Shown here: positions 3,099 through 48,640 of the stretch, in pieces | How positions within the stretch are numbered: the first letter of the stretch is position 1 | Layout of the letters: the number at the start of each line of letters is the position of its first letter | Notes under the pieces: model-generated | Database searches by the model: none | What the model was told of the DNA's origin: nothing | Seen by the model: only the letters and a program-made list of their open reading frames with translations | Program-made: the position numbers and the translations under genes | Source of the DNA: Betaproteobacteria bacterium | GTDB taxonomy: Bacteria; Pseudomonadota; Gammaproteobacteria; Burkholderiales; SG8-41 | Length of the DNA stretch: 48,640 bases | Direction of reading: 5' to 3' | NCBI GenBank assembly: GCA_016192825.1 | Contig: JACPTK010000120.1 | Location: 1 to 48,640, forward strand

Positions 3099-4061
3099 AT
3101 GCGGCTTTCACGCTGCCTCGCCCTGCTGCTCTGCGTCGTTTCAGGCGCCGCGTTGGCCCAGTCCTATCCCGCGCGCCCCATCCGGCTCATCGTGCCGCAG
3201 GCGCCGGGAAGCGCTTCCGACAACATCGCGCGCATCGTCGCCGTCCAGTTGAGCCAGCTCTTCGGCCAGCAGGTGGTCGTGGACAACCGGCCCGGCGGCG
3301 CGCTGGTCATCGGCATGGACCTGATCGCGAAGGCCACGCCGGACGGTTACACCATCGGCTACGCGCCGGTCGGCGCGCTGGCGATCGGCCCCAACCTGGT
3401 GCGGAAGGTCCCGTTCAACGTGCTGACGGATTTCCAGCCGCTCGCGCAGATCGCGTCCAACCAGATGGTGCTCGCCGCCTCGCCATCGCTGCCGCTCAAG
3501 TCGGTCCGGGAAGTGATCGACTACGCCAAGGCGAACCCCGGCAAGCTCCTCAACGCCTCGTCCGGCAACGGCACCCCGGGGCAGGTCGGCATGGAGATGT
3601 TCAAGCTCATGAGCGGAACGCGCATCGTGCACGTGCCCTACAAGGGCGGCGCGGCGGCCATCGCCGACCTCATGGCGGGGCAGGTGCACCTCATGATGGA
3701 GAGCCTCAACTCCGCGACGCCGCATGTCCGCGCGGGCCGCATCCGGCCGCTCGGCGTGAGCGGGCCAAAACGCTCGCCGGCGCTGCCCGACGTGCCGACG
3801 ATCGCGGAGGCCGGCGTGCCGGGCTACGAGGCCACCACCTGGAACGGCATGGTCGCGCCGGTCGGCGTGCCGAAAGCCGTCGTCGCGAGATTGAACGCGG
3901 AGATCAACGGCGCCCTTCGCACGCAGACACTCAGGAAGCGCTTCGCCGCGCTCGGCGCCGAGCCGGTGGGCGGGACGCCGGAGGCGTTCGGCGCGCTCAT
4001 CCGCCGCGAGCACGCAAAGTGGGGCGACGTGATCCGGCGCTCCGGGTCGAAGGTCGACTGA
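3099..4061 (+). CDS. Bug/TctC-family periplasmic solute-binding protein
   Basis: This 320-residue protein has a signal peptide (cleavage expected after GAALAQ) and the family opening YPARPIRLIVPQAPGSASDN. It goes on with VVVDNRPGG, TPDGYTIGY, VPYKGGAAAIADLMAGQV, VPTIAEAGVPGYE and a C-terminal KWGDVIRRSGSKVD. Bug proteins bind small carboxylates in the periplasm for tripartite tricarboxylate (TctAB) transporters or for sensing. No TctA or TctB is nearby, so the ligand and partner are unknown. AAGGAGG stands six bases before the ATG. It converges on the oxidoreductase gene at 4218. Confidence 0.92.
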   Translation: MRLSRCLALLLCVVSGAALAQSYPARPIRLIVPQAPGSASDNIARIVAVQLSQLFGQQVVVDNRPGGALVIGMDLIAKATPDGYTIGYAPVGALAIGPNLVRKVPFNVLTDFQPLAQIASNQMVLAASPSLPLKSVREVIDYAKANPGKLLNASSGNGTPGQVGMEMFKLMSGTRIVHVPYKGGAAAIADLMAGQVHLMMESLNSATPHVRAGRIRPLGVSGPKRSPALPDVPTIAEAGVPGYEATTWNGMVAPVGVPKAVVARLNAEINGALRTQTLRKRFAALGAEPVGGTPEAFGALIRREHAKWGDVIRRSGSKVD

Positions 4062-5306: not shown

Positions 5307-6431
5307 CTACTCACGCTTTTTTCGAAAATCGGCGACGGACTTCGCATACTTTCCGTCGCGGGTCTTGAGCGCCCGCGTGACGGGCTTGGTGGCTCCGAAC
5401 GTGTGGATGACCGCCGAGTGCTTGCCGGCGCCGCCGATCACCGCGATCAGCAGGTCCTCCGGCCTTTGCACCATGGGCACCGGCGCGTCAGGCCCGGCGT
5501 TGGCCAATCTCTCCTTCCACGTCACGCGCATGCGGCGCTCGATGTTCTCCTTCGAGAAGCGCCCGAGCGGCAGGTGGGCGTGCTCGACGAGGAAGCGCTT
5601 GGCGTCGGCCTTGCTGTAGCCGCCGTCCGCGACGGTCTTCGCGTGCTCCGGGCCCATGACGACAAGGGGTTCGGCCTCGTAGTAAACGTCGTTCGCCCCG
5701 GCGGCGAGCATCGTGCCGGCGATGGTGGTGAGGATGCCTTCCGCGGTGATGCTCTCGTGGTCGTTCACGTTGTGCGGGCACTCGGCGCCGATTACCGTCA
5801 CCGCGCTTGCCTCGCGCGGCAAGCCGCGCTCGACGTGCAGCGGCTGCCACGGGCTCGCTGCCTCGTTCTCGGCAGCGAGGTAGGAGTACTTGGAGGGCGC
5901 GCCGAAGGTGGACATGTCGCCCAGCGCGGGTATCGCGCCGCCGATGTTGACCAGCGCGAGCCGGATCGCGCGCCCGAGGGTGGCGTTCGCCTGCCAGCCG
6001 GGGCCGAATGCGTTATGGCCGGAGTTGATGTCGAGCTCCTTCGCCACCGGCCCGTTCACGATCACGAGCGGCGCGCACAGGTGCGTCGTCGCCTGGACGC
6101 CGTAGAGGTTGAACGGCTCCTCGCACATCGCCTCGATGGCGAGCACCAGCAGCGGGAAGTACTCGGGCCGGCACCCCGCCATGACCGCGTTGGCGGCGAG
6201 CCGCAGCGGCGTCGCCTCGCCGTAGCGCGGCGCCATCTTCGCCACCGGCTCGTCCCACGGCCGGTCGCAGTACTCGAGCATCCTCTCCACGCGCGCCGCG
6301 GTCGGCGGCACGATGGGCAGGCCGTCGCTCCAGCCGCGGCCGCGAGCGAGCTCGTTGACCGCGTCGAAATCGTCCTCGCACTCAACGCCCGCGCCCGGCG
6401 CTTTCAGCAATTCGGAGATGTCAGCACTCAT
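5307..6431 (-). CDS. Large partner protein of the UGSC selenoprotein (split locus)
   Basis: This 374-residue protein is clearly homologous to the C-terminal two thirds of the fused selenoprotein at 42294-44018. Shared blocks include WSDGLPIVPPTAARVE versus WGDGLPLWPATKERVD, MAGCRPEYFPLLVLAIEA versus MAGGRPEYLPVLVAAVEA, PLVIVNGPVAKELDINSG versus PAVIVNGPIAKQIRLNSG, and NIGGAIPALGDMSTFGAP versus NVGGALPGVGTMAIFGAM. It is soluble, with no signal peptide. It lies downstream of the small Sec protein on the same strand, with 182 to 194 bases between them that contain a 9-base inverted repeat. I use the ATG at 6429-6431; an in-frame TTG four codons earlier is less likely. The reaction is unknown; partnership with the Sec domain is inferred from the natural fusion. 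Confidence 0.75.
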   Translation of the reverse strand: MSADISELLKAPGAGVECEDDFDAVNELARGRGWSDGLPIVPPTAARVERMLEYCDRPWDEPVAKMAPRYGEATPLRLAANAVMAGCRPEYFPLLVLAIEAMCEEPFNLYGVQATTHLCAPLVIVNGPVAKELDINSGHNAFGPGWQANATLGRAIRLALVNIGGAIPALGDMSTFGAPSKYSYLAAENEAASPWQPLHVERGLPREASAVTVIGAECPHNVNDHESITAEGILTTIAGTMLAAGANDVYYEAEPLVVMGPEHAKTVADGGYSKADAKRFLVEHAHLPLGRFSKENIERRMRVTWKERLANAGPDAPVPMVQRPEDLLIAVIGGAGKHSAVIHTFGATKPVTRALKTRDGKYAKSVADFRKKRE

Positions 6432-6445
6432 TCTGAAATTCAAGA

Positions 6446-6625: not shown

Positions 6626-7162
6626 CTATTTGAAACTTTCCTTGATGAGTTCCAGCACTTTCGGCACGGCGTGTAGGGCACGGGCCTTGACCCCCTCCAG
6701 GTCGAGGCCACCCAGCGGGTGCGGGATGAGCAGCAGCGGCAGATCCGGCACGCCGAACACGCGCGCCTGCGTCTTTCCCAGCTTGAGGAAGGGCTCGGAG
6801 CAGATCACGGCGGTGGCGAGGCCGCGCTTCCGGAGTTCACACATGTCGTGGACACTCCACGACGTGCATGACCCTCAGTCCGCCATCGCGCTGACGACGA
6901 AATCGGCCTCCGCGGCGAGCTGGTCCAGGATGTCCTTGGGCGCCGGGAGGCTGACGGTCGCCTTGCGCAGCGCGACCACCGAGGCGACGGGCACGGCCGC
7001 CTTGACGCCCTCCACGATGAATTCGAGGAGGTGGTCGGCATTGCCCTTGCTGTTGTCGAGCACGCCCAGGCGCAACCCGCCCTTGCCGGCCTTGCGGCTC
7101 GCGGCGGCGGCTGCGGCTGCGCGCACCGGCGCCTCCGGCACGACCAATGTAACCTTGCTCAT
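6626..7162 (-). CDS. UGSC-family selenoprotein with in-frame TGA (Sec96)
   Basis: The frame opens at the ATG 7160-7162 behind GAGGGAG, runs 95 codons to AMAD, meets TGA at 6875-6877, and then continues without another stop for 82 codons, reading GSCTSWSVHDMCELRKRGLA and later LPLLLIPHPLGGLDLEG, to a TAG at 6626-6628. U-G-S-C is the signature that defines the UGSC selenoproteins first noted in marine metagenomes (recalled, not looked up). The stretch after the TGA is well-formed protein and is homologous in layout to the second Sec protein at 42294-44018. A hairpin of SECIS type starts four bases after the TGA. The product is 178 residues with an alpha/beta (flavodoxin- or racemase-like) look and no signal peptide. 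The Sec-x-x-Cys pair suggests a redox site. Conventional gene callers would truncate it or split it in two. Confidence 0.82.
6838..6870 (-). promoter_or_regulatory. Predicted bacterial SECIS hairpin after the UGSC TGA
   Basis: On the minus-strand RNA, GUCGUGG (6863-6857) and CCACGAC (6851-6845) form a perfect 7-bp stem with the loop AGUGU. The stem is extended below by CAUGCAC against AUGUGUG with six of seven positions able to pair, including wobbles. The apical loop begins 18 bases after the UGA and has a G in its first two positions. Both fit the published general rules for bacterial SECIS elements. Its pairing was found by eye. Confidence 0.7.
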
Positions 7163-35966: not shown

Positions 35967-36027
35967 GACTCCCGCACTGCGGTTGTTTCCAGACTCCTGA
36001 CGCGTATCACGGAAGGCGTGAGCAAAC

Positions 36028-36723: not shown

Positions 36724-36732
36724 GGGGGGAAA

Positions 36733-36851
36733 GCAGTTGGCAGTTGGCAGTTGGCAGTTGGCAGTTGGCAGTTGGCAGTTGGCAGTTGGCAGTTGGCAGT
36801 TGGCAGTTGGCAGTTGGCAGTTGGCAGTTGGCAGTTGGCAGTTGGCAGTTG
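36733..36851. repeat. Perfect GCAGTTG heptamer array, 17 copies
   Basis: Exactly 119 bases of unbroken GCAGTTG repeats start 9 bases behind the stop of the ModA-like gene. The copies show no sequence change, so the array is recent or homogenised. It is followed by drifted CTGACGG/CTGGCAA units to about 36885. Confidence 0.97.
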
Positions 36852-37038
36852 CTGACGGCTGGCAACTGACGGCTGCGGACTGGGCTTAACCACTCACGCC
36901 CTTCCAAGTAAGAGATGCGCGGGCGGCTCCGCCCGCCGCCGTCTGTCCCGCCTACTCGAAGCGGACGAAATTGCCCTGCAAAAGGCGGACGAGTAGGCTC
37001 GAAATGAAGTTTTCATTGCTTTTTGCCTCCCTTTTCGT

Positions 37039-37091
37039 GCAGGCGGTTTTGCATAAGGAGTTTGTCGGAGCCAAGTCCGGCAAACTCCTAG
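37039..37091. mobile_element. Right end of a CTAG MITE-like element (partial)
   Basis: GCAGGCGGTTTTGC (37039-37052) equals the inner inverted repeat of copy B at 41908. It is followed by a hairpin AGGAGTTTG.CGGA / TCCG.CAAACTCCT (37056-37089) and CTAG (37088-37091). The left part (from about 36950) is diverged. The TAG stop of the following minus-strand gene lies in the CTAG. Confidence 0.65.
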
Positions 37092-37408
37092 AGCTCGCGA
37101 TTGCGCGGCGGGCTCGCGAACTCGCCGGGCCCGACGCCCGAACGATCCGCCGTCACCACGCATTGCGACTTGTTGTTGGCAAGGTCTTTCCGGTTCCGGC
37201 AGTGGAACGGACGGAAGTTTTCGGGCGTATCTGGGCCGCCGGCGACGGTCTTCTCGATTTTCCAGCCGAATTCCGAGAGCTCGCGACCCAACTGGTCGCG
37301 CCGCATCCACGCCCCGCAGGCATCCTGCCGCCACACGGACGAATTCGCCTCGGGCAGCGCCCGGCCCTGCTCCCACACGCGTTCGATCAACTCCGGTGTC
37401 CATTTCAT
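37088..37408 (-). CDS. Small HNH-like protein, probably degenerate
   Basis: This 106-residue protein contains SSVWRQDACGAWMRRDQLG, SEFGWKIEKTVAGGP, NFRPFHCRNRKDLANNKSQC. It resembles small HNH-like proteins in which the D-H pair of the first HNH strand stands after GW-x-I; here that position is IEK, so the catalytic His is missing. The later N-x-x-x-x-H-x-x-N part is kept. It may be a structural relative of no nuclease activity. The stop codon is donated by the MITE-like element, so the native C-terminus may have been longer. Confidence 0.55.
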   Translation of the reverse strand: MKWTPELIERVWEQGRALPEANSSVWRQDACGAWMRRDQLGRELSEFGWKIEKTVAGGPDTPENFRPFHCRNRKDLANNKSQCVVTADRSGVGPGEFASPPRNREL

Positions 37409-37554
37409 GGTCCGTGCTTCCCCAATGTCAGAAAGTGGCTCGGTTGCCCCGCGTCTCGTAGCGCGTTTCCCCTCATCCAACGTTACAAGGACCCGGGCCA
37501 CGGGACTTTGACCTAGCGCAAACGCAGGCGGGTCTGGCGGCGCACAATTTTGAA

Positions 37555-38517
37555 ATGACACAGGCAACGGTGCGCGAGCGCGCATTCATCCCGGCCTACC
37601 GCAGCTTGCTGGAGAGCGGCGAGCTTGCGCGGCGCGCCGCGGCGGCCTGGCAGCGCCTGGAAGACTGCGACCTTTGCGCGCGCTACTGCCGAGTGGACCG
37701 CAGGAAGGGCATCGCGGGCGCCGTGTGCCGTACCGGGGAGCGCGCGCTCGTCGCGAGCTACGGGCCGCACCATGGCGAGGAGGATCCGCTGCGCGGCACG
37801 GCCGGCTCCGGGACGATCTTCTTCAGCTGGTGCAACCTGCGCTGCGTCTACTGCCAGAACTGGGACATTTCCCAGCGCCGCGCCGGCCGCGAGGTCGAGC
37901 CGCGCGAGATCGCGGACATGATGCTGGAGCTGCAGCGCCTCGGCTGCCACAACATCAACTTCGTTACGCCGAGCCACGTCGTCGCGCAGATCATCGCCGC
38001 GGTCGAGGACGCCGCCCGCCGCGGCCTGGCGCTGCCGCTGGTCTACAACACGGCGGGATACGACAGCCCGGAGGCGCTGGGGTTGCTCGACGGCATCATC
38101 GACATCTACATGCCGGACCTCAAGTACGCCGATTCGCGCCTCGCGCACCAGTACTCGAAGGTGCGGGATTACGCGGAGGTCAACCGCGCGGCGGTGAAGG
38201 AGATGCACCGGCAGGTGGGCGATCTCGTGCTCGACGCGCGGGGAGTCGCGCAGCGCGGCCTGCTGGTGCGGCACCTCGTGCTGCCGCATGGCATCGCGGG
38301 AACGCGCGAGGTGCTGCGCTTCCTCGCGGAGGAGATCTCGCGCGACACCTACCTCAACCTGATGGACCAGTACCACCCTTACCATCACGCCAGCGAGTAC
38401 GACGAGCTCGCCCGGGCGCTCACGCGGGAGGAATATCGCGAGGCGCTCACGTTCGCCGCGGAAGCGGGACTGAAGCGGCTCGACCACCGGCTGGAATACC
38501 GGCGGGGCTGGGTGTAG
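37555..38517 (+). CDS. Radical SAM protein, COG1313/PflX-like
   Basis: This 320-residue protein has the radical SAM cluster motif C93-N-L-R-C97-V-Y-C100 in FFSWCNLRCVYCQNWDIS. An N-terminal cysteine set C38-D-L-C41-x-x-x-C45 and C58 may bind a second metal site. GHNINFVTPSHVVAQII, YNTAGYDSPEALGLLDGIID and YMPDLKYAD are typical of the PflX-like family, which resembles pyruvate-formate-lyase activases. The substrate is unknown. A membrane protein gene begins 27 bases after its stop in the same direction. Confidence 0.87.
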   Translation: MTQATVRERAFIPAYRSLLESGELARRAAAAWQRLEDCDLCARYCRVDRRKGIAGAVCRTGERALVASYGPHHGEEDPLRGTAGSGTIFFSWCNLRCVYCQNWDISQRRAGREVEPREIADMMLELQRLGCHNINFVTPSHVVAQIIAAVEDAARRGLALPLVYNTAGYDSPEALGLLDGIIDIYMPDLKYADSRLAHQYSKVRDYAEVNRAAVKEMHRQVGDLVLDARGVAQRGLLVRHLVLPHGIAGTREVLRFLAEEISRDTYLNLMDQYHPYHHASEYDELARALTREEYREALTFAAEAGLKRLDHRLEYRRGWV

Positions 38518-38544
38518 CGGCGCGCGGCGGGCCGGCCTACGCTC

Positions 38545-39654
38545 ATGGAAACGATGCGACTGCGCGCAACCGGCGTACTGCTGCTGGCGATGTTCATCGC
38601 GTGGGCGGCGCCCCTCGCCGGGCTCGCCGCGGCCGGCCAGCCGGTGGCGCGCTTCCTCGACTTCCCCCCGCGGACCGAATACGTGTCTCACGCTTCCTTC
38701 GCCTGGAGCGCCTTCATCGCGCTGTCGGTGCCGCTGCTCGGCGCGGTGGCGCTATTCGCCTCGGCGATCGTCAGGGCGAAGCCGGCGCCAGCTGCCGCCT
38801 CCGATTCCGGCCGCTTTCCGTGGTGGGGATGGGCGGCGCTCGCGTTGATCGCCGCCGGCTGGGTGCTCGCATGGACGGAGGGCATGGTGCCGCCCGGCTG
38901 GCGGCGCCACACGTTTACGCCACTCTGGCTCGGCTACGTCCTCGCCATGAACGCGCTCGCCTGGCGCCGCACCGGCCGCTCGCCTCTCACGCACCGCACC
39001 GCGTGGTTTCTGTCCCTTTTTCCCGTCAGCGCGGCCTTCTGGTGGCTGTTCGAGCATCTCAACCAATTCGTGTCCAACTGGTATTACAGCGGGATACACG
39101 CCTCGGGCGATTGGGACTACTTCCTGCAGGCAACCCTTCCGTTCTCCACCGTGCTGCCGGCGGTGGCGAGCACGTGGGCCTGGCTCAGGGGATTTCCCCG
39201 CCTCGAGGCGCTCGCCCTGCCCGCCGTGCGCGGTCATGCTTCGCTCGCCTGGCTCGCGCTCCTCGCGGGCGCGCTCGCGCTCGCCGGCGTCGGCTTCCGC
39301 CCCGAGGTCCTGTACCCCGCGCTCTGGCTGGGCCCGCTCCTCGTTCTGTGCGGGCTTCAACACCTGCTGCTGGGCGACTCCCTGCTCGCGCCGGTCGCGC
39401 GCGGCGACTGGCGGCCGCTGCTGCAGCCCGCGCTCGCGGCGCTGGTCTGCGGCTTTTTCTGGGAGTTCTGGAACTACGGCAGCCTCGCGAAATGGCATTA
39501 CAGCGTCCCGTACGTGCAGCGCTTCCACGTCTTCGAGATGCCGCTGCTCGGCTATGCGGGCTACCTGCCCTTCGGCGTCGTGTGCGCGCTCGTCATGGAC
39601 CTCGTGGCGCGGCTCGTCGAGCGCGGCCCCTTGTACCTCCGGAGCATCGCCTGA
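38545..39654 (+). CDS. Polytopic membrane protein of unknown function
   Basis: I do not recognise this 369-residue protein. It has about nine or ten hydrophobic segments, with WWLFEHLNQFVSNWYYSG and GFFWEFWNYGSLAKWHYSVP, two loops of similar type (E-x-x-N / W-x-Y), which hint at an internal duplication. The latter is followed by RFHVFEMPLLGYAGYLPFG. It follows the radical SAM gene by 27 bases and is likely co-transcribed, so it may be a partner or substrate in the same membrane pathway. Confidence 0.75.
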   Translation: METMRLRATGVLLLAMFIAWAAPLAGLAAAGQPVARFLDFPPRTEYVSHASFAWSAFIALSVPLLGAVALFASAIVRAKPAPAAASDSGRFPWWGWAALALIAAGWVLAWTEGMVPPGWRRHTFTPLWLGYVLAMNALAWRRTGRSPLTHRTAWFLSLFPVSAAFWWLFEHLNQFVSNWYYSGIHASGDWDYFLQATLPFSTVLPAVASTWAWLRGFPRLEALALPAVRGHASLAWLALLAGALALAGVGFRPEVLYPALWLGPLLVLCGLQHLLLGDSLLAPVARGDWRPLLQPALAALVCGFFWEFWNYGSLAKWHYSVPYVQRFHVFEMPLLGYAGYLPFGVVCALVMDLVARLVERGPLYLRSIA

Positions 39655-39706
39655 TGCAGGTCGACGTCAACCCCCTCGCTTCGCCGTTGCCCGGCGCGCA
39701 GCCATC

Positions 39707-39949
39707 ATGGTCAAGCAGCATCCCCAGCGCGACGAACCGAAGGTGGACAGCGTCGAGCAGGACGAGATACCTCCGAAGTGAGATGCGCGTGACGCGCTTG
39801 CCCGCCTGTGGAGCGCGCGGCGGGCCGATCCGACCGAAGGCGGCATCGTGGTGGACGGGCCACCAGTCGTCCAGCGCAGAACGGCCACGGGCTTCGAAAC
39901 ATGGCCGCGGCCCGGGGTCGACGACATCACGAAGGCCTTTGCCGCATGA
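39707..39949 (+). other. Possible decayed ORF with one internal TGA
   Basis: An ATG at 39707 opens 24 codons (MVKQHPQRDEPKVDSVEQDE and IPPK), a TGA at 39779-39781, then 55 sense codons in the same frame (starting DARDALARLWSARRADPTEG) to a TGA at 39947-39949. Codon use looks protein-like on both sides, but I recognise no family and no hairpin follows the internal TGA. It is probably a decayed gene. Nothing else is seen in 39655-40066. Confidence 0.3.
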
Positions 39950-40066
39950 GATGAAACGTCGAGTCATCCCGGCACGATGCGCTGCAAGGCGCGGCCGCGG
40001 CTGGCCTTGACGCAAGTCAGTACCCTCTCCGGTCGCGCGACGTAGCCTGCGGGCAGGAGCAGCCGC

Positions 40067-40483
40067 ATGCACGGATGGATCGTCCCGCCGCCCAAGACGC
40101 CCGCCAGGAGCGCCGCCGACCACGAGCGGGAGCGCCGGCGCAAGGTGTGCTGGCTGGAGGCTCAGGGCCTGCTCGGGTCCCCGCGCATCAGGGCAGCGCT
40201 GCTCAAGGTGCGGCGCGAGGACTTCATCCCCCGGCAGTACCGCGACTACGCCTACGAGGAAGTGCCGCTGCCTCTGCCCGGGGCGTCGGCGACGATCTCC
40301 TGCCCGCACAGCTATCCCCTGTTCTACGAGCCGCTTGGGCTCGACTGCGGCCATCGCTTCATGGAGATCGGCACCGGCTCCGGCTACGACGCCGCCGTCG
40401 CGCGCGAGGTGGTCGGCGACGACGGGCTCGTGGTGTACGTCGCGCTGCGCGGCGCCTACGGCACGGTGGGAGAAACAGCATGA
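40067..40483 (+). pseudogene. Protein-L-isoaspartate methyltransferase with internal deletion
   Basis: The 138-residue frame starts like PIMT: RRKVCWLEAQGLLGSPRIRA, LLKVRREDFIPRQYRDYAYE, ISCPHSYPLFYEPLGLDCG and the SAM motif I FMEIGTGSGYDAAVAREVVG. It jumps right after GDDGLVV to VYVALRGAYGTVGETA, which looks like the family's last strand (VxFVPLxGxYG). About 80-90 residues with the other SAM-binding motifs are absent, without loss of frame. GGAG precedes the ATG. Its TGA overlaps the ATG of the next gene. The product is most likely inactive; it may persist for coupling. Confidence 0.65.
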
Positions 40484-40839
40484 GAATCGAAAGCACCGAA
40501 TTCGGAAGCATCACCATCGACGGCGAGACGTACGACCACGACGTGCTGATCCGGCTGTCCGGCGAGGTCGTCAAGCGCAAGAAAAAGCTGTCCAAGAAGT
40601 ACTACGGCACATCCCACACGATTTCGCGCGAGGAGGCCAAATTCGTCTACGAGAAGGGCTGCCGCGAGCTGATCCTGGGCACCGGCCAGTACGGCAACGT
40701 GGCGCTCTCGCCCGAAGCCGCGGAGTTCTTCGAGGCGAAGCGCTGCCGCATCCTCGCCCAACGGACTCCGGACGCCATCAAGAGCTTCAACCGGTCGTCA
40801 ACCAAGAGAAAAATCGGGCTGTTCCACGTGACGTGCTGA
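40480..40839 (+). CDS. Mth938/DUF498-domain protein
   Basis: This 119-residue protein shows SITIDGETYDHDVLIRLSGE, KKLSKKYYGTSHTISREEAK, LILGTGQYGNVALSPEAAEF and SSTKRKIGLFHVTC, all hallmarks of the Mth938-like fold. Its biochemical role is not known; relatives include a mitochondrial complex I assembly factor. The ATG overlaps the stop of the deleted methyltransferase (ATGA), so the two are coupled. Confidence 0.88.
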   Translation: MRIESTEFGSITIDGETYDHDVLIRLSGEVVKRKKKLSKKYYGTSHTISREEAKFVYEKGCRELILGTGQYGNVALSPEAAEFFEAKRCRILAQRTPDAIKSFNRSSTKRKIGLFHVTC

Positions 40840-40950
40840 AGCCGCGCACCCCGGCTTCGTCTGGCGCTCGTCATGCCCTCGGCATCCGGCCCGGCCGGAT
40901 GCACGCTGGCTCCGTGGAAGGAGCCCGATAGCCAGGGTCGCGGGTCGCGC

Positions 40951-41841
40951 TCAGTAAGTCAGCCGCCCCGGCACCTTGACCCGCACGCGGTAGAGCGAGG
41001 TGATGCCGGTGAGGTAGAGCGAGCGCAGGTCGTCGTCGCCCCACGCGATGTTGGTTACCCTCTCGGGCGTGCGGATGACGCCGAGGCAGCGCGCGCGGGG
41101 GTCGAGCACGTGCACGCCGCCGGGACCGGTGCAGTAGAGGTTGCCGGCGCTGTCGAGCTTCATGCCGTCGGGCCGTCCCTCGCCCTCGCCGGTCAGCGCG
41201 GCCCAGACTTCACCGCCCGTGAGCGTGCCGTCCGACTTCACGCCGAACACGCGGATGTGGCCGCGCATCGTGTCGTTCACGAACAGCCGCTTCTCGTCGA
41301 GCGCGAAGCAGAGCCCGTTCGGCTGTTCGAAATCGTCGGCGAGCAGCTGCGTCGGCGCGCCGTCGCCCGCGACGCGGTAGACACCGCGGAAGGCGAGCTG
41401 CAGCTCGCGCGGCACGCCCACGTCCTCGCGGATGCGCCCGTAGGTGGGGTCGCTGAAGTAGATCGCGCCGTCGGACTTCACCACGATGTCGTTGGGGCTG
41501 TTGAGCTCCCGGCCGCCGTAGTGCGTGGCGAGCACGGTCATCGCGCCGTCCTTTTCCTGGCGCACGACGCGGCTGGTGGCGTGCTCGCACGACACCAGCC
41601 GGCCCTGCCGGTCGTAGGTGTTGCCGTTCGCCTTGCCGCTCGGCTGGCGGAAGGTGCGGATGCCCTCGCCCGTCCGCCAGCTGCGCATGTGGTCGTGCTT
41701 CATGTCGCTGAAGATCACCCGCTTCCCGGCGCGGTCCCACACCGGTCCCTCGCCGAAGCCGAATCCCGTCGCGAGCCGCTCGGCGGCCGCTTCGGCGCCC
41801 GCCACGTCGAGCATCCCCTTTTCGCGAATTTCCAGCGTCAT
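40951..41841 (-). CDS. SMP-30/gluconolactonase-type lactonase
   Basis: This 296-residue six-bladed propeller has FGFGEGPVWDRAGKRVIFSD at the start, which includes the metal-binding Glu, RLVSCEHATSRVV, LNSPNDIVVKSDGAIYFSDP with the Asn ligand, and GRPDGMKLDSAGNLYCTGPG with the Asp ligand. Such enzymes hydrolyse sugar or other lactones with a divalent metal. No signal peptide is seen. The ATG at 41839-41841 behind GAGAAAG is preferred over an upstream TTG. No sugar pathway gene is close. Confidence 0.88.
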   Translation of the reverse strand: MTLEIREKGMLDVAGAEAAAERLATGFGFGEGPVWDRAGKRVIFSDMKHDHMRSWRTGEGIRTFRQPSGKANGNTYDRQGRLVSCEHATSRVVRQEKDGAMTVLATHYGGRELNSPNDIVVKSDGAIYFSDPTYGRIREDVGVPRELQLAFRGVYRVAGDGAPTQLLADDFEQPNGLCFALDEKRLFVNDTMRGHIRVFGVKSDGTLTGGEVWAALTGEGEGRPDGMKLDSAGNLYCTGPGGVHVLDPRARCLGVIRTPERVTNIAWGDDDLRSLYLTGITSLYRVRVKVPGRLTY

Positions 41842-41857
41842 CGGATTCTTTCTCAAA

Positions 41858-41892
41858 ATCGTGAGTGGTGATTGGTGAGTGGTGAGCGGACC
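41858..41892. repeat. GTGAGTG/GTGATTG heptamer array
   Basis: Four to five GTGAGTG/GTGATTG units directly upstream of the lactonase start and 16 bases before the MITE-like element. Confidence 0.8.
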
Positions 41893-41907
41893 TTCAAAGT
41901 CCCGCGC

Positions 41908-42119
41908 CTAGGAGTTTGTCGGACTTAGGGCCGACAAACACCTGATGCAAAACCGCCTGCGCAAAAACGGAAGAAAACGGTTGCAAAAAGCCCTATTTTC
42001 AGCCTGCGCGCGTGCCCGTTGGAGGCCAGGAAGGGTCGTCATCCCGAATTTCATTTGAAATGCGCAGGCGGTTTTGCTGTTAGCAGCCTGTCGGCTTGCC
42101 AAGTCCGACAGGCTGCTAG
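41908..42119. mobile_element. 212-bp MITE-like element with CTAG at both ends (copy B)
   Basis: The same length and plan as copy A: CTAG, left hairpin (AGGAGTTTGTCGG.. / ..CCGACAAACACCT), inner inverted repeats GCAAAACCGCCTGCGC (41947-41962) and GCGCAGGCGGTTTTGC (42062-42077), right hairpin with AGCAGCCTGTCGG and CCGACAGGCTGCT (42082-42117), CTAG. Its body differs from that of copy A, so only the ends are conserved. This suggests that the termini are what a transposase or structure-forming process recognises. No protein is encoded. Confidence 0.82.
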
Positions 42120-42217
42120 GCTATCCCGCTCTCGCGGACGCAGCGCCCGTTACTTTCTTTCCGCGAGCCGGCCTTCCGGCAGGGCGAGCAGCGCGTCGTA
42201 GATCCTGCATTCGGTAT

Positions 42218-42290
42218 GCGTCAGCCGTCAGTCGCCCGACAAGCACCGGTCACGGGTCACCAGTCGCGAGTCACGAATCACGAATCATGG
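42218..42290. repeat. GTCAGCC and TCACGAG/TCACGAA heptamers
   Basis: CAGCCGTCAGTC units followed by CACGGGT, CACCAGT, CGCGAGT, CACGAAT, CACGAAT at 7-base steps; they run to the stop codon of the fused selenoprotein. 42120-42217 shows no gene. Confidence 0.75.
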
Positions 42291-42293
42291 AAG

Positions 42294-44018
42294 TTAGATG
42301 CGGCACGCATCCTCCCCGCACCCGAGGTCCCGGTCGGCGTCGGCGAGCAGCTGCTCGAACGTCTCCGGCACGCGGACGACGCGCCCGATGACCGCCGGGG
42401 AATGCGCCTGCAGCCAGTAGCTGTGGGTCGGATGCCCGCCGCCGGCGACGACGAGCGCGATGTTGTCGGGCTTCTGGCAGATCGGCCACGGATCGAGGGA
42501 GAGGCTCGCACGCGTTACCGGGTTCGCGTCGATCTCGATCCATGCCGGCGCGCCCGCCCGCCGCATCTGCGCCATCGGGATCTTCGAGTTCTCCCACAGG
42601 AACTCGCGGATCGAGCGCTGGGTCCAGCCGAGCTCCGCCATCCGCCGCGCGACGATCGGCGCGAGCATCATGATGCCGGGCGTGCCCTTCTCCCATCCGG
42701 CGAGCGCCGCGAGGTTGGGCGTGCGCATGAAGTCCGCCATGCGCCACATGCCGTTCAGCGCATCTTCCTCCGGCGTTTCCTTCTTCGCGCCCCGGCGCCG
42801 GACATTGGTGACCCCGCTCGCGAAGGCGACCGAGACCGAATTCGTGCCCGGCGCGAAACCGTGGCGCTGGGTCGCGTGCGGCTGCCATCCTGGCGGGAGT
42901 CCCTCCTCGTCCTCGGCGAAGACCGCGTTGGTGTAGCGCATGGCCCCGAAGATCGCCATCGTGCCGACGCCCGGCAGCGCGCCGCCCACGTTCTGCTGCA
43001 GGAGGCGCAGCGCGCGCCCGATGCTCGCCCCGGCGGGCCGCTGCGGGTCCGGCCCGAGCAGGCCGAACCCCGAATTGAGGCGGATTTGCTTCGCGATCGG
43101 CCCGTTGACGATAACGGCGGGGAACGGTCCGCCCGAAGTGGCCTGCAGCTGGTCGAAACCCTCGGACGCGAGGCATGCTTCCACCGCGGCAACCAGCACC
43201 GGCAGGTACTCGGGCCGCCCCCCGGCCATGGCGAGCGTGATGGCGCAGGTCTCGACGGTGGTGACGCCGCCGCGCGGCGGGAACTTGCCGAGCACGTGCG
43301 TGCGCGGAGCCGTGGAGCCCCGGAGCATCCAGTCCACGCGCTCCTTCGTTGCGGGCCACAGCGGCAGGCCATCGCCCCACAGGTTGGCAAGCAGGAGGTT
43401 GTTGGCCTTGACGAGAGCGTCCTCGTAGCTGGCGCCCTCGACGGAGAGCATCGTTGCCGAGCCCGCCGCCTGCGCGAACTCCGATTTCCAGCGGGTAAGC
43501 CCGTCGTAGAACTCGCGCTTGCGCGCCTTGAGGGAGGCGAGATCGCTCCCCGGCAGGAACATCTGGATCGGGAACGTGACCATGGCCGCGTCGGGCGCGA
43601 ACCCGATCCCGGACACGGCGTTCTTCATGACGCCCACGAAATCCGTCCGCGTGAGCGTGACGGTGGGGATCCCGAGCGCTTCTATCCTAGCGGCTGCACG
43701 GCCGCATGCTGTGGCGCAGGCCCCTCAAGCCGCGTTGCCGACGATGACGGCGTCGACGCCGCTCTTTTTCACGGCCGCGGCGGTTTCCTCCGTGCCGATC
43801 AAAGCGTTGCCCTGCGGGAAGGCGTCGATCGGCAGCACGGTGACGCCCGGAAAATCGGCCTCGAGCATCTCCTTCAGCATCGGCAGCATGCGATAGGCCT
43901 GCCACTGCTCGTTGCTGACGAAGCCGATGCGCCTGCCCTCGAGCGAGGCGAGCCGCGGCGCGTGCGGCTGCGTCACCTCGAGCGCGCCCGACGGGTCGTG
44001 GAACTCCAGTCTGATCAC
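42294..44018 (-). CDS. Fused UGSC-type selenoprotein (Sec98) with large C-terminal domain
   Basis: A GTG at 44016-44018 behind GGAGGAGG opens 97 codons ending VIVGNAA. TGA follows at 43725-43727 and the frame then stays open for 476 codons: GACATACGRAAARIEALGIP, LTRTDFVGVMKNAV and on to CGEDACRI. The product is 574 residues. Residues 1-160 resemble the UGSC protein at 6626 (Sec-G-A-C here); residues 180-574 resemble the partner protein at 5307. Reading the TGA as stop would cut off a strong N-terminal domain; starting downstream would leave the large domain without it. Hence Sec insertion is the best explanation. The protein is cytoplasmic. It follows a small lysine-rich gene by 17 bases. The reaction is unknown, but Sec-x-x-Cys suggests redox chemistry. 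Confidence 0.78.
43692..43722 (-). promoter_or_regulatory. Possible SECIS hairpin after the fused selenoprotein TGA
   Basis: On the minus-strand RNA GGC(C)UGC pairs with GCAGCC (one bulge), and GCC-A-CA pairs with UG-C-GGC above it, leaving a GCA loop that begins 15 bases behind the UGA with G first. The structure is less regular than the one at 6838-6870 and has a three-base bulge on its 3' side. Confidence 0.45.
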
Positions 44019-44035
44019 GGCACCTCCTCCTGCTT

Positions 44036-44236
44036 TCAGCCGTTCGATTCGCCCGTCCCGGACGCCCCCTCGGCGGCGGGTTCCGCCGGGCCGGGCGTAT
44101 CCGTCGCAGCGGCCGGCTCCGCGTCGCCGGCGGCGGCCTGCTTCGCGGCGAGCTTGCGCAGGCGCTTTTCCTCCTGTTTTTTTCTCTTCGCCAGGTCCCT
44201 CTGGCGCCTCTCGAACTGGTAGTTGGGTTTTGCCAA
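44036..44236 (-). CDS. Small charged protein of unknown function
   Basis: This 66-residue protein starts MAKPNYQFERRQRDLAKRKK and continues QEEKRLRKLAAKQ, then has an Ala/Pro/Glu-rich tail. The strongly basic helical N-terminus is common to short hypothetical proteins found in betaproteobacteria. It may bind nucleic acid or be a ribosome-associated factor. It lies 31 bases behind cspA and 17 bases before the fused selenoprotein gene, so it may link these in one transcript. Confidence 0.75.
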   Translation of the reverse strand: MAKPNYQFERRQRDLAKRKKQEEKRLRKLAAKQAAAGDAEPAAATDTPGPAEPAAEGASGTGESNG

Positions 44237-44267
44237 GCGGTGACTCCCGGTCGCGGCCGACGCCAGG

Positions 44268-44474
44268 TCAGGCCGTCTTCAGATTGTCGGCAGAGGTCTT
44301 TCCGTCCTTGCCGCGGACGAGCTCGAACTGGACCTTCTGTCCGTCCGAGAGCGTGCCGAGGCCGGCGCGCTCGACGGCGGAGATGTGCACGAACACGTCC
44401 TTCGAGCCGTCATCCGGCTGGATGAAGCCGTAACCCTTCGTCTTGTTGAACCACTTCACCGTTCCGCTGGGCAT
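44268..44474 (-). CDS. cspA: Cold shock protein of the CspA family
   Basis: This 68-residue protein has the RNP1-like KGYGFIQPDD and RNP2-like VFVHISAVE motifs, the start GTVKWFNKTKGYGF and the end GPQA-like GKTSADNLKTA. It is an RNA chaperone or transcription antiterminator. AGGAGAG precedes the ATG. An intrinsic-terminator-like hairpin with a T run lies in the 51 bases upstream, so the gene has its own promoter or is subject to leader control. Confidence 0.93.
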   Translation of the reverse strand: MPSGTVKWFNKTKGYGFIQPDDGSKDVFVHISAVERAGLGTLSDGQKVQFELVRGKDGKTSADNLKTA

Positions 44475-44491
44475 TGCGATCTCTCCTGGAA

Positions 44492-44517
44492 GAAAAAAAC
44501 ACGACGGGACACCCGTC
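44492..44517 (-). terminator. Intrinsic terminator upstream of cspA
   Basis: On the minus strand GACGGG-TGT-CCCGTC (44517-44503) is a perfect 6-bp stem with a 3-base loop, followed by GTGTTTTTTT. It would end the transcript of the gene at 44526 and insulate cspA. Confidence 0.8.
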
Positions 44518-44525
44518 CGGCCGGA

Positions 44526-44705
44526 TCATTTCCCGCCGGGCGCATGAGCGAGCTTGGTAACGCGATAGTTGATGGCGCCGGAGCCGTGCCGCCCGGCGTT
44601 GGTGAACTTGTGGTAACCGTTGCAGTGCGCGCAGCGGTGCAGGAACTCGTCGCCTTTCCCGGTCGTGCGGACCTCGGTCGTCTTGCCGCAATGATGGCAT
44701 CTCAT
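44526..44705 (-). CDS. Small zinc-ribbon-like protein
   Basis: This 59-residue protein has C3-x2-C6 (RCHHCGK) and C-x2-C (HRCAHCNGYHKF), forming a likely zinc ribbon, then a basic tail. Short proteins of this kind may bind RNA or regulate transcription. Its stop codon lies 9 bases from the terminator. I know no precise family. Confidence 0.7.
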   Translation of the reverse strand: MRCHHCGKTTEVRTTGKGDEFLHRCAHCNGYHKFTNAGRHGSGAINYRVTKLAHAPGGK

Positions 44706-44953
44706 GTGGATTCGGTCACGCGGGAGCCGATAGGGCCTGAAAAGCGGTTCATTCCGACTCGTTAACGAGGGGCGTTGGAAGGGTTGCCCGCCATGACGGC
44801 AACGGCGCGGGGCGTGGAAGGTATCAAGCGGCGTATCCGGGTGCCCAATGATACACCCATCGGGGCGGGAAGTCCCGGTTTCGCGGCGCTTTGGTGTTCC
44901 GCAGTCCGATCGCGCCCGTTCCCCGGCGCGCCGTGGCCGCCCGGCCGCCGCGG

Positions 44954-45475
44954 CTAATCCGGCTGCAGGCCGAACGTGGCGGCGAGCGTGCAGGCGAGAT
45001 CCATGATGCCCACGAGCGCGGCGATCTCCACGATTTCCTTCGCGGAAAAGTGCGCCGCAAGCTTCGTCATCAGGCCCTCCCCGACCGCGCCTGCCGACCG
45101 CACCATCGCCTCCGCGAATTCGAGCGCGGCGGCTTCTCCCGCATCGAGCGCGCGGTAATCCGAGCGGGCGATAGCGTCCAGTTCCTCGCCGCTCACCCCG
45201 TGCTTGAGCGCGTAGCGCCCGTGGGAGCCCGTGCAGTAGGCGCTCCCCCGCAGCCGCGCGACCCGGTACGCGATCTTCTCCTTGAACGCCCGCGGCAGCG
45301 TCCCGGCGTCGAGCGCGGCGTGGAAGTAGGCGCGGTGCGCCGCGAGGATCTCCGGCCGGTGCGCGAGCGTGCGGTACATCCCGGGCACGCGCCCGCGCGT
45401 TTGGCGCAACTGCTTGAAGACTTCCCGCAGCTCCGCGGGCTCGTTGTGCGGCTCGACCATCGGTATGCGTGGCAT
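44954..45475 (-). CDS. AhpD-like/carboxymuconolactone decarboxylase-family protein
   Basis: This 173-residue alpha-helical protein has RVPGMYRTLAHRPEILAAHR, AFKEKIAYRVARLRGSAYCT and GSHGRYALKHGVS, with C-T-G-S-H in place of the C-x-x-C-x-x-x-H of AhpD. So it lacks the second Cys and is probably of the peroxidase-like or decarboxylase-like branch with a single Cys. It is cytoplasmic. The gap to the next gene (44706-44953) holds nothing I recognise. A heptamer array lies upstream. Confidence 0.82.
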   Translation of the reverse strand: MPRIPMVEPHNEPAELREVFKQLRQTRGRVPGMYRTLAHRPEILAAHRAYFHAALDAGTLPRAFKEKIAYRVARLRGSAYCTGSHGRYALKHGVSGEELDAIARSDYRALDAGEAAALEFAEAMVRSAGAVGEGLMTKLAAHFSAKEIVEIAALVGIMDLACTLAATFGLQPD

Positions 45476-45482
45476 GGCCCGA

Positions 45483-45517
45483 ATGCGTGATTGGTGAGTA
45501 GTGAGTGGTGATTGGAC
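45483..45517. repeat. GTGATTG/GTGAGTA heptamer array
   Basis: Five GTGATTG/GTGAGTR units start nine bases upstream of the AhpD-like start codon and fill most of the gap to the deleted Bug gene. Confidence 0.8.
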
Positions 45518-45567
45518 GTTGCGCTATGGCGCACACGCCGCCGGTCGCCTGCCGCGCGTCACGGCCC

Positions 45568-46161
45568 TCATTGCGGCCGTATACCCGCTTGCCGCGCGAG
45601 CTTCGCCATCTCGGCGACCTGCTCGGCGATCAGCTCGTCGAACCCGGCGGGCGTGGTCGGGTCGGGCTCGACGCCGAGCGCGGTCATCTTCTGATGGATC
45701 TCCGGCAGCGCGAGAATGCGGGTGATCTGCGCGTGCAGCTTGTTGATGATCGCGCGCGGCGTCTTCGCCGGCGCGAGCACCCCGGACCACGTGTCGAAGC
45801 GGAAACCCGGCAGCGCGGACTCGGCGAGCGTCGGCACGTCGGGGATCGCGCCGACGCGCTTCAGGCACGACACCCCGAGCGCCCGCAGCTTGCCCGCCTT
45901 CACGAGCGGAATCGAGCCGGAGAGCGGCGACATGAAGAACTGCACGCGGCCGGCAATGGTGTCGTTCAGCGACTCGGTGAGCTTCGCCCCGATCATCCGC
46001 GAGGTAATGTCGGGTGTGCCGCCCGGCGTGAACCCGATCACGACGCGGACCGGCCGCGCCGGGTAGCGCGAGGCCTCGCCGCTCTGCGCCGCCCAGGCGG
46101 CCGCGGGAATGAAGCAAGCAACCGTCAAGAAAACCGTAGTGCGCGTGAAGCGTAATTTCAT
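45568..46161 (-). pseudogene. Bug/TctC solute-binding protein with a 120-residue internal deletion
   Basis: The 197-residue frame has an intact signal peptide (MKLRFTRTTVFLTVACFIPA, then AAWAAQ) and Bug start YPARPVRVVIGFTPGGTPDI. After GAKLTESLN it jumps to DTIAGRVQFFMSPLSG and then goes on normally with KAGKLRALGVSCLKRVGAIP, PTLAESALPGFRFDTW and the usual C-terminus. In the intact paralogue at 25335 about 120 residues separate these points, including the VVVDNRPG and PYKG ligand loops. The deletion keeps the frame. A working ligand site is unlikely. Confidence 0.82.
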
Positions 46162-46332
46162 ATATCGGACTTTTCCCTGCGTTCGAACATTGACGCGTGA
46201 CAGTATATCCGCGGAGCAGCAATTCGGGTTCAGAAATGCCCACCACGCATCACCATCACTGCCGCCGTCGCGTTGACTGCCGCGACCTCGCGTTATACGC
46301 TACGGCGCGCCCACCGCAGACGAGGAGGCCGC

Positions 46333-47505
46333 TTGAACGCGCCCGTCGACGCCCCGCCGAAATACTTCACCTATTACCCCGGCAACTACCGCTGGTCGGC
46401 GGAGATGCTGGTCATCCTCAGCACCGCGCCGTACGGCGGCGCGGAGATCTCCGAAGTGGACCGCATCGGGCGCGGGCTGCGCGACCGTGTGGGCGACGAC
46501 GAAGCGTGGTTCGAGGCGTGGCGCGAGGGCGCCGATCTGCTGCGGCTGCGCGCCGGGGAAGCGGAGGCGAAAGGCCACGCGCTGACGGCAGCGTCGAATT
46601 ATCTGCGCGCGAATTTCTACTACCAGACCGCCGATCACTTCCGTCAGCCCAAGGACGAAAAGGCGCTCGCGGTCTACCGCCAGTCGCTCGAGTGCTTCCG
46701 CCAGTTCGCCGCGCTCACCGACCGGCCGCGCATCGAGACGGTCGAACTGCCGTTCGAGGGCGGCTCTTTCCCCGCCTACTTCGTGCACGCGGTGAACGCC
46801 GGCGGGAAGCGCAATCCATGCGTCGTGCGCTTCGGCGGCTTCGACACGCAGAAGGAAATGCAGTACCTGCGCGGCACGCCCGAGCTCGCGCGCCGCGGCA
46901 TCTCCTACCTGCTGGTGGACGGCCCCGGCCAGGGCGAGTCGATCCGCTTTCGCGGCCTGCACCTGCGCCACGATTTCGAGGTCGCAGGCAGCGCGGCGCT
47001 CGATTACCTCGCCACGCGCGGGGACGTGGACATGGCGCGCGTAGCCGTCATGGCGATGAGCCTCGGCGGCTACTACGCGCCGCGCATGGCGGCGATGGAC
47101 CCACGCTACAAGGCGTGCGTGACGTGGGGCGCGATCTGGGACTACCACGCCACCTGGGTGCGGCGGCTCGAGCGGATCAAGCAGGCCGCGCTGCCGGTGC
47201 CGGCGGACCACCTGCTGTGGGCGTGCGGCGTGGACGACTACGACGCGGCGCTGAAGAAAATCGAGGGCTTCCGCCTCGACGGCGTCGCGCAGAAGGTGAA
47301 ATGCCCGTTCCTGCTGCTGCACGGCGCGGCCGACGCGCAGGTCTCGATGGCGGAGGCGCAGCGGCTGTTCGACGCGATCGGCTCGAAGGACAAGACCTTC
47401 CGCGTGTTCACCGAAGCGGAAGGCGGCGCCCAGCATTGTCAGCGCGATTACCTGACGCGGGCGATCGACGTCATGGCCGACTGGCTCGATGAGAAACTCA
47501 AATGA
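46333..47505 (+). CDS. Alpha/beta hydrolase of the DUF1100/pseudooxynicotine-hydrolase-like group
   Basis: This 390-residue protein has a long helical N-terminal part (EAWFEAWREGADLLRLRAGE, ASNYLRANFYYQTADHFRQP) followed by the hydrolase core. The nucleophile Ser243 is in VAVMAMSLGGYYAPR, the acid in LLHGAADAQVSM and the His in GAQHCQRDY. The architecture resembles 2,6-dihydroxypseudooxynicotine hydrolase and FrsA-like enzymes that split C-C or ester bonds. I prefer the TTG start at 46333-46335 since GAGGAGG lies five bases before it; an ATG at 46273 would add 20 atypical residues. It is divergent from the deleted Bug gene. Confidence 0.82.
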   Translation: MNAPVDAPPKYFTYYPGNYRWSAEMLVILSTAPYGGAEISEVDRIGRGLRDRVGDDEAWFEAWREGADLLRLRAGEAEAKGHALTAASNYLRANFYYQTADHFRQPKDEKALAVYRQSLECFRQFAALTDRPRIETVELPFEGGSFPAYFVHAVNAGGKRNPCVVRFGGFDTQKEMQYLRGTPELARRGISYLLVDGPGQGESIRFRGLHLRHDFEVAGSAALDYLATRGDVDMARVAVMAMSLGGYYAPRMAAMDPRYKACVTWGAIWDYHATWVRRLERIKQAALPVPADHLLWACGVDDYDAALKKIEGFRLDGVAQKVKCPFLLLHGAADAQVSMAEAQRLFDAIGSKDKTFRVFTEAEGGAQHCQRDYLTRAIDVMADWLDEKLK

Positions 47506-47572
47506 CTGGCGGCTCGCGGCTCGTGACTGGTGTTTTGTGCACTATCTATAAGAATCCCGAGGAGGACGGTTT

Positions 47573-48559
47573 ATGAAGATGCGCTCGCTGTCGCTTGTTT
47601 CCCTTTTCCCTTTTGTCCTGTGCCTCGGGCTATCGCCTGCCACCGCGCAGGAATGGAAGCCGTCGCGCAACATCGACATCATCGTGTCCTCGGGGGCTGG
47701 CGGCGCCGCGGACCGGGAGGCAAGGGAAACCCAGCGCTTCCTGCAGCAACTGCCCGGCATGCCGCCGGTGACGGTAATCAACCGCCAGGGCGGCGGCGGA
47801 ACAGTGGCCTGGAGCTCGGTGATACAGCGCAAGGGCGACGCGCACACGATTTCTACGCTCAATGTGGCGCTGCTCACCAACCAGATTCTCGGCACCGCGA
47901 AGATCGGCTACCGCGATCTCACGCCGCTTGCCGTCCTCATGCGCGAGTACGTCGCGGTATGGACCCGGACCGCGTCGCCGATTGGCTCGGCCAAGGATCT
48001 CGTCGAGCGGCTGAAGACGGATCCCTCGTCGGTGAGCTTCGGCCTGTCGCCGGCGCTCGGCAATCAGAACCACATCGTGCTCGGCATGATCGCGAAGGCC
48101 GCGGGCATCGATCCGAAGGCGCTGAAGATCGTGGTCTACTCCTCCGGCGGCCAGGGCATGACCGCGGCGCTGGGCGGTCACGTGGAGGTCTGGGCCGGCA
48201 CGCTCGGCGGTGCGCTGGCCCGCGCGAAGAAGGGCGGTGGAGTCCGCGTGCTCGGCGTAAGCGCGGAGCAGCGCGCCCCCGGCGCGGCGGCGGAGCTGCC
48301 GACCTTCCGCGAGCAGGGCATCGACGCGGTCTACGCGGCCTTTCGCGGCTGGCAGGGCCCCCCGGGCCTGACACCGGCGCAGCGCGCGTTCTGGGACCAG
48401 ACGTTCTCGACCATCGTCCAAAGCGACGAATGGAAGGAGGTCGAGCTGAAGAACGCGTGGGGCAGCGGCTACCTCGACAGCGCCGCCACGCGCAAGCACC
48501 TCGACGCCGAGTTCGAGTCGCTGCGCAAAACGCTGGCGGAGCTGGGCGTCATCAAGTAG
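47573..48559 (+). CDS. Bug/TctC-family periplasmic solute-binding protein
   Basis: This 328-residue protein has a signal peptide ending near ATAQEWKP. Its N-terminus RNIDIIVSSGAGGAADREAR is less typical than those of its paralogues, but VTVINRQGGGGTVAWSSVIQ, YRDLTPLAVLM, LKIVVYSSGGQGMTAALGGH and KNAWGSGYLDS are of the family. It may belong to a divergent branch. GAGGA precedes the ATG. A GATGAGG array starts seven bases behind its stop. Confidence 0.87.
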   Translation: MKMRSLSLVSLFPFVLCLGLSPATAQEWKPSRNIDIIVSSGAGGAADREARETQRFLQQLPGMPPVTVINRQGGGGTVAWSSVIQRKGDAHTISTLNVALLTNQILGTAKIGYRDLTPLAVLMREYVAVWTRTASPIGSAKDLVERLKTDPSSVSFGLSPALGNQNHIVLGMIAKAAGIDPKALKIVVYSSGGQGMTAALGGHVEVWAGTLGGALARAKKGGGVRVLGVSAEQRAPGAAAELPTFREQGIDAVYAAFRGWQGPPGLTPAQRAFWDQTFSTIVQSDEWKEVELKNAWGSGYLDSAATRKHLDAEFESLRKTLAELGVIK

Positions 48560-48565
48560 CCCCTT

Positions 48566-48640
48566 GATGAGGGATGAGGGATGAGGGATGAGGGATGAGG
48601 GATGAGGGATGAGGGATGAGGGATGAGGGATGAGGGATGA
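48566..48640. repeat. Perfect GATGAGG heptamer array, runs off the window
   Basis: At least 10.7 unbroken copies of GATGAGG (75 bases) reach the window edge. The full length is unknown. It matches shorter arrays at 33257 and (inverted) 1151. Confidence 0.95.

Follow-up and report, generated by a model that had tools for sequence, protein, structure and literature searches.

A selenocysteine-type fusion of a UGSC domain with a large partner domain in a betaproteobacterial genome

Introduction

Does the TGA triplet inside a long open frame near the end of a betaproteobacterial contig encode selenocysteine (Sec), and if so, what kind of protein is made from the frame? The stretch of DNA analysed here, called the window throughout, comprises 48,640 nucleotides. 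An earlier note, made from its sequence, had read the locus as a selenoprotein that joins two otherwise separate proteins, a small Sec domain with a U-G-S-C-like motif and a large partner. The note had also regarded a fused selenoprotein of this kind as undescribed. This claim did not hold, since a UGSC protein fused with a conserved domain called Unknown_1 was reported by Zhang and Gladyshev in 2008 (PMC2398784), and seven more fused copies are present in the window's own genome. Like the window protein, the 2008 fusion combines a UGSC selenoprotein with a conserved domain of unknown function; Unknown_1 may or may not correspond to the partner domain studied here.

The row for UGSC-containing proteins in a 2016 survey holds the values 26 and 33, which we read as organisms and proteins, and the largest bacterial selenoprotein set then known comprised 39 genes (both PMC5029168). 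A function of the UGSC domain or of its partner is not named in the excerpts of PMC2398784, PMC13188914, PMC9312934 and PMC5029168 at hand.

Results and Discussion

Gene layout and reading frame

Read directly, the minus strand from 44018 to 42294 is a single frame that opens with GTG and runs over 97 codons, a TGA (43727-43725) and 476 further codons to a TAA (Table 1). The earlier note had given the same coordinates, start codon, ribosome binding site, codon counts and U-G-A-C motif, and all of them are confirmed. Upstream of the gene lie a small frame (44236-44036) and a gene for a cold-shock protein (44474-44268); a gene of the SMP-30/gluconolactonase type (41856-40951) follows downstream.

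Table 1. Features of the fusion locus and of related loci in the window.
Feature	Coordinates	Strand	Basis or remarks
Single-chain UGSC/partner selenoprotein gene, 574 residues, Sec at 98	42294..44018	-	GTG start, TAA stop 42296-42294
Ribosome binding site AGGAGGAGG 5' of the GTG start	44023..44031	-	Read directly; strong
Selenocysteine codon TGA (residue 98; motif U98-G-A-C101)	43725..43727	-	Row alignment and Sec machinery
SECIS-like hairpin, stem GCGGC/GCCGC, loop CGUGCA	43690..43705	-	Loop starts 24 nt after UGA; -8.1 kcal/mol alone
N-terminal UGSC domain, residues 1-180	43479..44018	-	PF24696, AlphaFold model, GrdB/PrdB kinship
C-terminal partner domain, residues 187-574	42297..43460	-	Homology to 5307-6443
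Separate UGSC protein, TGA 6877-6875, U-G-S-C	6626..7162	-	PF24696, 146.8 bits
Separate partner protein, 378 residues, order as in fusion	5307..6443	-	Sequence match to fusion
TctC receptor gene in the vicinity of the separate UGSC and partner genes	3099..4061	+	Profile match
TctC receptor gene near the fusion, 5'-truncated	45568..46161	-	Profile positions 143-272 only

The TGA codon across genomes

In a search of 60 genomes (the window's own genome included), 40 had a match to the fused protein. The matches listed include at least 32 long ones in 25 other genomes, with 52-92% identity, two of which are truncated by the end of a contig; one internal TGA is found in 31 of the 32 and two in the remaining one. 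A sequencing or assembly error at 43725-43727, which the earlier note had named as a possible refutation, would therefore have to recur in all these matches, and in 25 aligned ones at the Sec column itself. Nothing in favour of such an error was found, and we reject it as having a negligible probability.

A wider alignment holds 115 fused rows, namely 79 from a genome collection, eight from the own genome and 28 from relatives. Starts were chosen automatically, 35 partially covered segments were left out, eight rows with two or more internal TGAs were included, and one record was entered twice (L051 and L139). The Sec column of this alignment contains TGA in 107 rows, Cys in six, Ser in one and a gap in one. 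The motif reads UGSC in 68 rows, UGAC in 19, UGGC in ten and UGTC in six, and its second Cys is retained in 109 of the 115. The window's U-G-A-C is thus indeed a variant of U-G-S-C, as the earlier note had it, but holds no special status.

The six Cys forms are full-length homologues, which the earlier note had considered the decisive check. Two of them read CGTS (L009 from the own genome, and L060) and four CGSC (L066, Nonomuraea corallina; L075, a Sphingomonas MAG; L107, a Mycobacteriaceae MAG; L130, Novosphingobium flavum); the frame of L075 contains a TGA at another place. Sec and Cys forms can be close kin: L088, with TGA in a UGTS motif, shares 71% identity over 532 columns with the CGTS protein L009, and the two are sisters in a quick tree (SH-aLRT 95). 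In one fused frame (L089, 2116-3834) Ser-Gly-Gly-Ser takes the place of the Sec motif; this frame stands immediately before a Sec-type fused copy and is possibly an inactive or differently working paralogue.

Under the standard code both halves of the frame exist as open frames, and the TGA could accordingly be a true stop that separates a 97-residue protein from a 447-residue protein started on its own at a GTG (43637). The Cys forms already contradict this reading, as they are read straight through. Furthermore, the orthologues align across residues 1-574, so that conservation at the protein level goes on beyond the TGA, and the sequence across the TGA and up to the next start is conserved in 26 orthologue rows (25 distinct ones, L051 and L139 being one record). 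Homologues in which the two parts are always separate and end at the TGA, the refuting case of the earlier note, were sought and not found: in the seven of ten separate UGSC genes of the own genome that were examined, the frame extends 80-108 codons beyond the TGA. The two proteins thus part only beyond the complete UGSC domain, and no domain boundary falls on the TGA. With both the separate UGSC frames and the Cys forms continuing past it, a protein break at the TGA is rejected, and a true stop is very improbable.

Signals and machinery for Sec insertion

Bacterial SECIS elements are described as having a loop of 3-9 nt with a G in its first two positions, an upper stem of 4-16 bp, a distance of 16-37 nt from the UGA and a minimum free energy of at most -7.5 kcal/mol (PMC13188914, excerpts). 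The hairpin at 43690-43705 fits these constraints with its 6-nt loop, five base pairs, spacing and energy (Table 1). The earlier note had asked for SECIS folding of 43690-43727, and the constraint-fitting hairpin lies in this place. The best 54-nt fold includes it in 12 of the 26 orthologue rows and leaves it out in the window. Taken alone the window's hairpin is unexceptional, with 20% of other positions in the gene scoring as well.

Synonymous conservation in the 26 orthologue rows reaches its maximum just 3' of the TGA, at codons 101-110 (mean synonymous excess 0.317 versus 0.118; 317 informative codons), and conservation at codons 99-114 has a random-sample p of 0.0012. Over the 107 TGA rows the SECIS-type stem score averages 17.9, compared to 8.1 further downstream in the same genes, and scores are lower in seven non-TGA rows (rank test, p 1.5e-4). 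Among these 107 rows, the most frequent distances from the UGA to the best loop are 17 nt (38 rows) and 24 nt (28 rows), and 54 of the best loops start with CGUG; the stem stands out within its own gene at the 5% level in only 54. A codon-shuffle energy test is weak overall (mean z -0.46 +- 0.19; controls -0.23 +- 0.05) and gives +3.1 for the window, a sign opposite to expectation. Rfam returned no match over the window at gathering scores.

The own genome carries the required machinery: selA adjoins selB on contig C50, tRNA-Sec follows selB, and two selD matches exceed the cut-off, one of them with a TGA of its own. SelB was compared in 48 genomes, which hold 50 of the 80 loci from the collection. 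It was found over cut-off in 37 of 43 genomes with non-Cys loci (including L071 and L080, whose locus is of the split form), leaving six without, versus one of five with Cys loci (Fisher p 0.005). Among the latter, the genome of L130 has a full SelB, and that of L060, one of the four below the cut-off, has SelB pieces on two contigs.

The TGA at 43727-43725 almost surely encodes selenocysteine. That the gene as a whole specifies a Sec-containing fusion of a UGSC-type domain and a large partner in one chain we hold to be close to certain.

Fused and split members of the UGSC family

Residues 7-151 match the UGSC family PF24696 (E 3e-20; 73.5 bits, cut-off 25), as do all 64 members of the fused alignment, and U98-G-A-C101 conforms to the family's Sec/Cys-Gly-x-Cys motif. 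The window protein thus shares its N-terminal domain, its Sec motif and the position of that motif with this family (PF24696, NF041046, the 'UGSC-containing protein' of Zhang and Gladyshev 2008). As differences, it carries the partner domain and stays below the cut-off of the NCBIfam equivalog NF041046 (45.2 bits, E 9e-12; cut-off 125). In the tree it forms a subfamily of its own with one row from Burkholderiales (L051, 76% identity) and two from genomes that are Chloroflexota by title (L052, L053).

The earlier note had described the fusion as the two proteins encoded separately at 5307-7162. For the partner half this is well founded, with residues 181-527 sharing 33% identity (E 1e-41) with the separate partner (6443-5307). 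The UGSC half is kin to the separate UGSC protein (7162-6626) by profile and hardly by pairwise comparison (BLASTP E 0.11 over 45 residues), and the two are only distantly related.

Matches in the own genome number 19 for UGSC and 20 for the partner. An in-frame TGA is present in 18 of the UGSC matches, one of these 18 being a remnant. Eight UGSC copies are fused; besides that of the window, six have TGA and one has Cys. Ten UGSC genes are separate, with a partner up- or downstream in nine and none listed for the one on C102. One partner (on C3) stands without UGSC, and two partner pieces belong to the remnant, which is scrambled (L012, 2322-3383; contig C30, about 15588-16124) and whose pieces are 77% and 64% identical to 5307-6443. 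With the UGSC family alone, this genome already has a large selenoproteome: its 18 TGA-bearing matches stand against the 26 and 33 of the 2016 survey. A partner-domain tree of 88 domains contains nine changes between fused and split states, at least three of them forced by well supported branches of this quick tree; fusion or fission therefore occurred more than once.

Several related genomes hold at least 22 or 23 matches each to the fused protein. UGSC fusions also occur in MAGs titled Bordetella parapertussis (L063, L067, L082, L100, L112, L118, L123), titles that may be wrong.

Kinship of the Sec domain with GrdB and PrdB

GrdB and PrdB are the substrate-binding Sec subunits of amino-acid reductases (PMC13188914, excerpts), and their Sec acts as a nucleophile (PMC10838667, excerpts). 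A UGSC profile aligned to a profile of 13 GrdB/PrdB-like proteins from related genomes with E 9.4e-8 and with Sec on Sec, whereas column-reversed decoys reached E 0.14 and 0.3. In the two GrdB-like frames examined in full, one each from G003 and G010, a TGA interrupts the frame at the aligned site. Weak matches (E up to 0.1) to PrdB were obtained for 25 of the 64 members and to GrdB for 18; the window protein itself gave no hit to PF07355 at E up to 1. As judged from these sequence comparisons, the Sec domain of the UGSC family is distantly homologous to that of GrdB/PrdB (PF07355; glycine/betaine/sarcosine and D-proline reductases), enzymes that cleave a C-N (or C-F) bond reductively.

The resemblance extends to gene arrangement: in G003, a genome of the same genus, all five full GrdB-like genes (contigs C19, C21, C22, C43 and C44) lie beside a GrdE-like gene, so that there too a large second protein adjoins the Sec subunit. 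The UGSC partner is nevertheless not of the GrdE/PrdA type (PF09338). Against a GrdE profile built on five of six GrdE-like genes the partner reached a probability of 0.1%, which indicates no kinship, and its comparison with the GrdB profile was null; the own genome holds one PrdB-like gene and no match to GrdE (PF09338). The motifs differ as well, being U-x-x-C-x-x-x-C in the window protein (U98, C101, C105) and UxxCxxC in GrdB (PMC13188914, excerpts).

Structure and the partner domain

The AlphaFold model of the whole chain (64 sequences) is confident, with pLDDT 90.6 and pTM 0.93. Its N-terminal domain alternates strands and helices, and Sec98 follows strand 90-96 and directly precedes helix 99-114. 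A Foldseek search of the whole chain against PDB retrieved nothing that matches most of the chain; the best matches were dehydroquinate synthases (E 4e-4; TM-score, normalised to query length, 0.17), which, to judge by their length, probably cover the N-terminal domain.

The partner domain modelled alone (72 sequences) reaches pLDDT 87 and has no match in PDB (best Foldseek E 0.33). A domain modelled with confidence and without counterpart in PDB is a new finding. The cyanuric acid hydrolase 'Toblerone' fold and the RidA fold returned repeated weak matches (probability 0.03-0.21), which we do not claim. Sequence searches of PDB, run with the protein itself and with profiles of the fusion and of the partner, gave nothing credible. 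In Pfam and NCBIfam the 64 members matched the UGSC and GrdB/PrdB models; all other hits were scattered and confined to one or two members each. A conserved Cys of the partner (in MAGC) is Gly in the window member.

These models bear on the question whether the protein could be a general thiol/selenol oxidoreductase that reduces peroxides or disulfides, with the partner as a mere docking or target domain. The modelled U-x-x-C motif at the N-terminal end of a helix would suit such a role, and a thioredoxin-like fold was suggested for the UGSC family in 2008 (PMC2398784, excerpts). This fold is not supported by the whole-chain matches, as none of the 50 PDB matches listed, whose top is taken by dehydroquinate synthases with low TM-scores, is described as a thioredoxin. 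The profile kinship, moreover, points to GrdB/PrdB, and a general redox protein would hardly need about 18 divergent copies, of which almost every one comes with a large partner. We consider a general oxidoreductase unlikely, if still worth bearing in mind.

A putative reductase of small organic acids

By analogy with GrdB/PrdB, we suggest that UGSC protein and partner together most likely reduce small organic acids in a Sec-dependent reaction for which the partner binds the substrate. On the computational evidence, UGA codon 98 is decoded by the genome's own SelA, SelB, tRNA-Sec and SelD, with a SECIS-type hairpin immediately 3' of it, and the resulting chain is the fused form of a two-part system that occurs both fused and split in one genome. 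Fusion would hold the two halves at a fixed stoichiometry. In the scheme proposed, the partner domain may bind a small organic acid and present it to Sec98, which would act as a nucleophile on the carbon adjoining a leaving group, as GrdB and PrdB do on amino acids; Cys101 would then resolve the intermediate state, and thiols would re-reduce the enzyme. The paralogues may be versions for different substrates supplied by nearby uptake receptors of the TctC type. As a whole, this explanation appears to us slightly better than an even bet, and its reductive mechanism and class of substrate, which lean on analogy, somewhat short of one.

A precedent for such chemistry outside amino acids is monofluoroacetate, for which a GrdB/GrdE-like pair has been proposed (excerpts of PMC13188914 and PMC10838667). 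With more reserve we raise the possibility that UGSC and partner represent a separate class of Sec-dependent reductive enzymes, with a GrdB/PrdB-type Sec domain and a partner of new fold, which radiated in Chloroflexota and in TctC-rich Burkholderiales. If this were true, genomes of both groups would carry at least a dozen paralogues, every one with its own environmental carboxylate as substrate, and the system would rank among the largest that use selenium in catabolism outside the classical anaerobes and are still unexplored. New in this study are the link of the Sec domain to GrdB/PrdB, the unmatched fold of the partner and the size of the UGSC expansion. The UGSC family is widespread, and its function can now be tested through the kinship with GrdB/PrdB, the link to the partner, and the coexistence of fused, split, Sec and Cys forms. 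This coexistence also means that a single-chain Cys form could be produced in a standard laboratory strain and tested for activity.

Genomic neighbourhood and TctC receptors

The own genome contains at least 150 TctC receptors. A listed receptor lies within 2 kb of ten of the 18 UGSC loci, where about 3.4 are expected (p 6e-4); the test used the best 150 of 303 candidates, and p becomes 0.09 if 300 receptors are assumed. The window's locus does not count towards the ten, as the truncated TctC gene next to it falls outside the listed receptors. Near 20 orthologues a TctC-type receptor is present in 19 of the 20 loci, at varying positions, and a comparison of the window's frames at 36000-48640 with these loci found no widely recurring neighbour except TctC. 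In the excerpts of PMC10838667 we found no link between UGSC and TctC.

The neighbours of the 20 orthologues comprise 134 proteins (up to seven nearest called genes of at least 120 residues per locus, from 248 called), of which 26 match TctC and two match arylmalonate decarboxylase. The latter two would agree with a different chemistry, in which Sec serves in acid-base or addition steps as Cys does in Asp/Glu racemases and the protein is an isomerase, lyase or decarboxylase. The UGSC domain presumably resembles Asp/Glu racemases, and the modelled alternation of strands and helices, with the active residue at a helix start, fits this too. The 16 Pfam families matched by the 64 members (E up to 0.1) include no racemase, however. 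Nearly all rows retain the second Cys of the motif, as given above, and Sec is rarely employed for acid-base work. Such a role therefore seems improbable to us, and the reductase reading is preferred.

Seven genes or fragments of the TctC type lie in the 48 kb of the window (3225-4043, inside the gene 3099-4061 of Table 1, 20382-21200, 25350-26159, 29753-30568, 31620-32438, 45568-46161 and 47573-48559).

Other features of the window

A palindromic repeat that looks like an intergenic element of the REP type occurs in two copies, at 42081-42118 (with 14-nt arms) and at 22720-22751; L010 has a comparable repeat behind the stop codon of its fused gene. Finally, the minus strand at 9103-12051 encodes a protein of 982 residues that consists of RCC1 repeats (13-14 stretches), which to our knowledge is unusual for bacteria.
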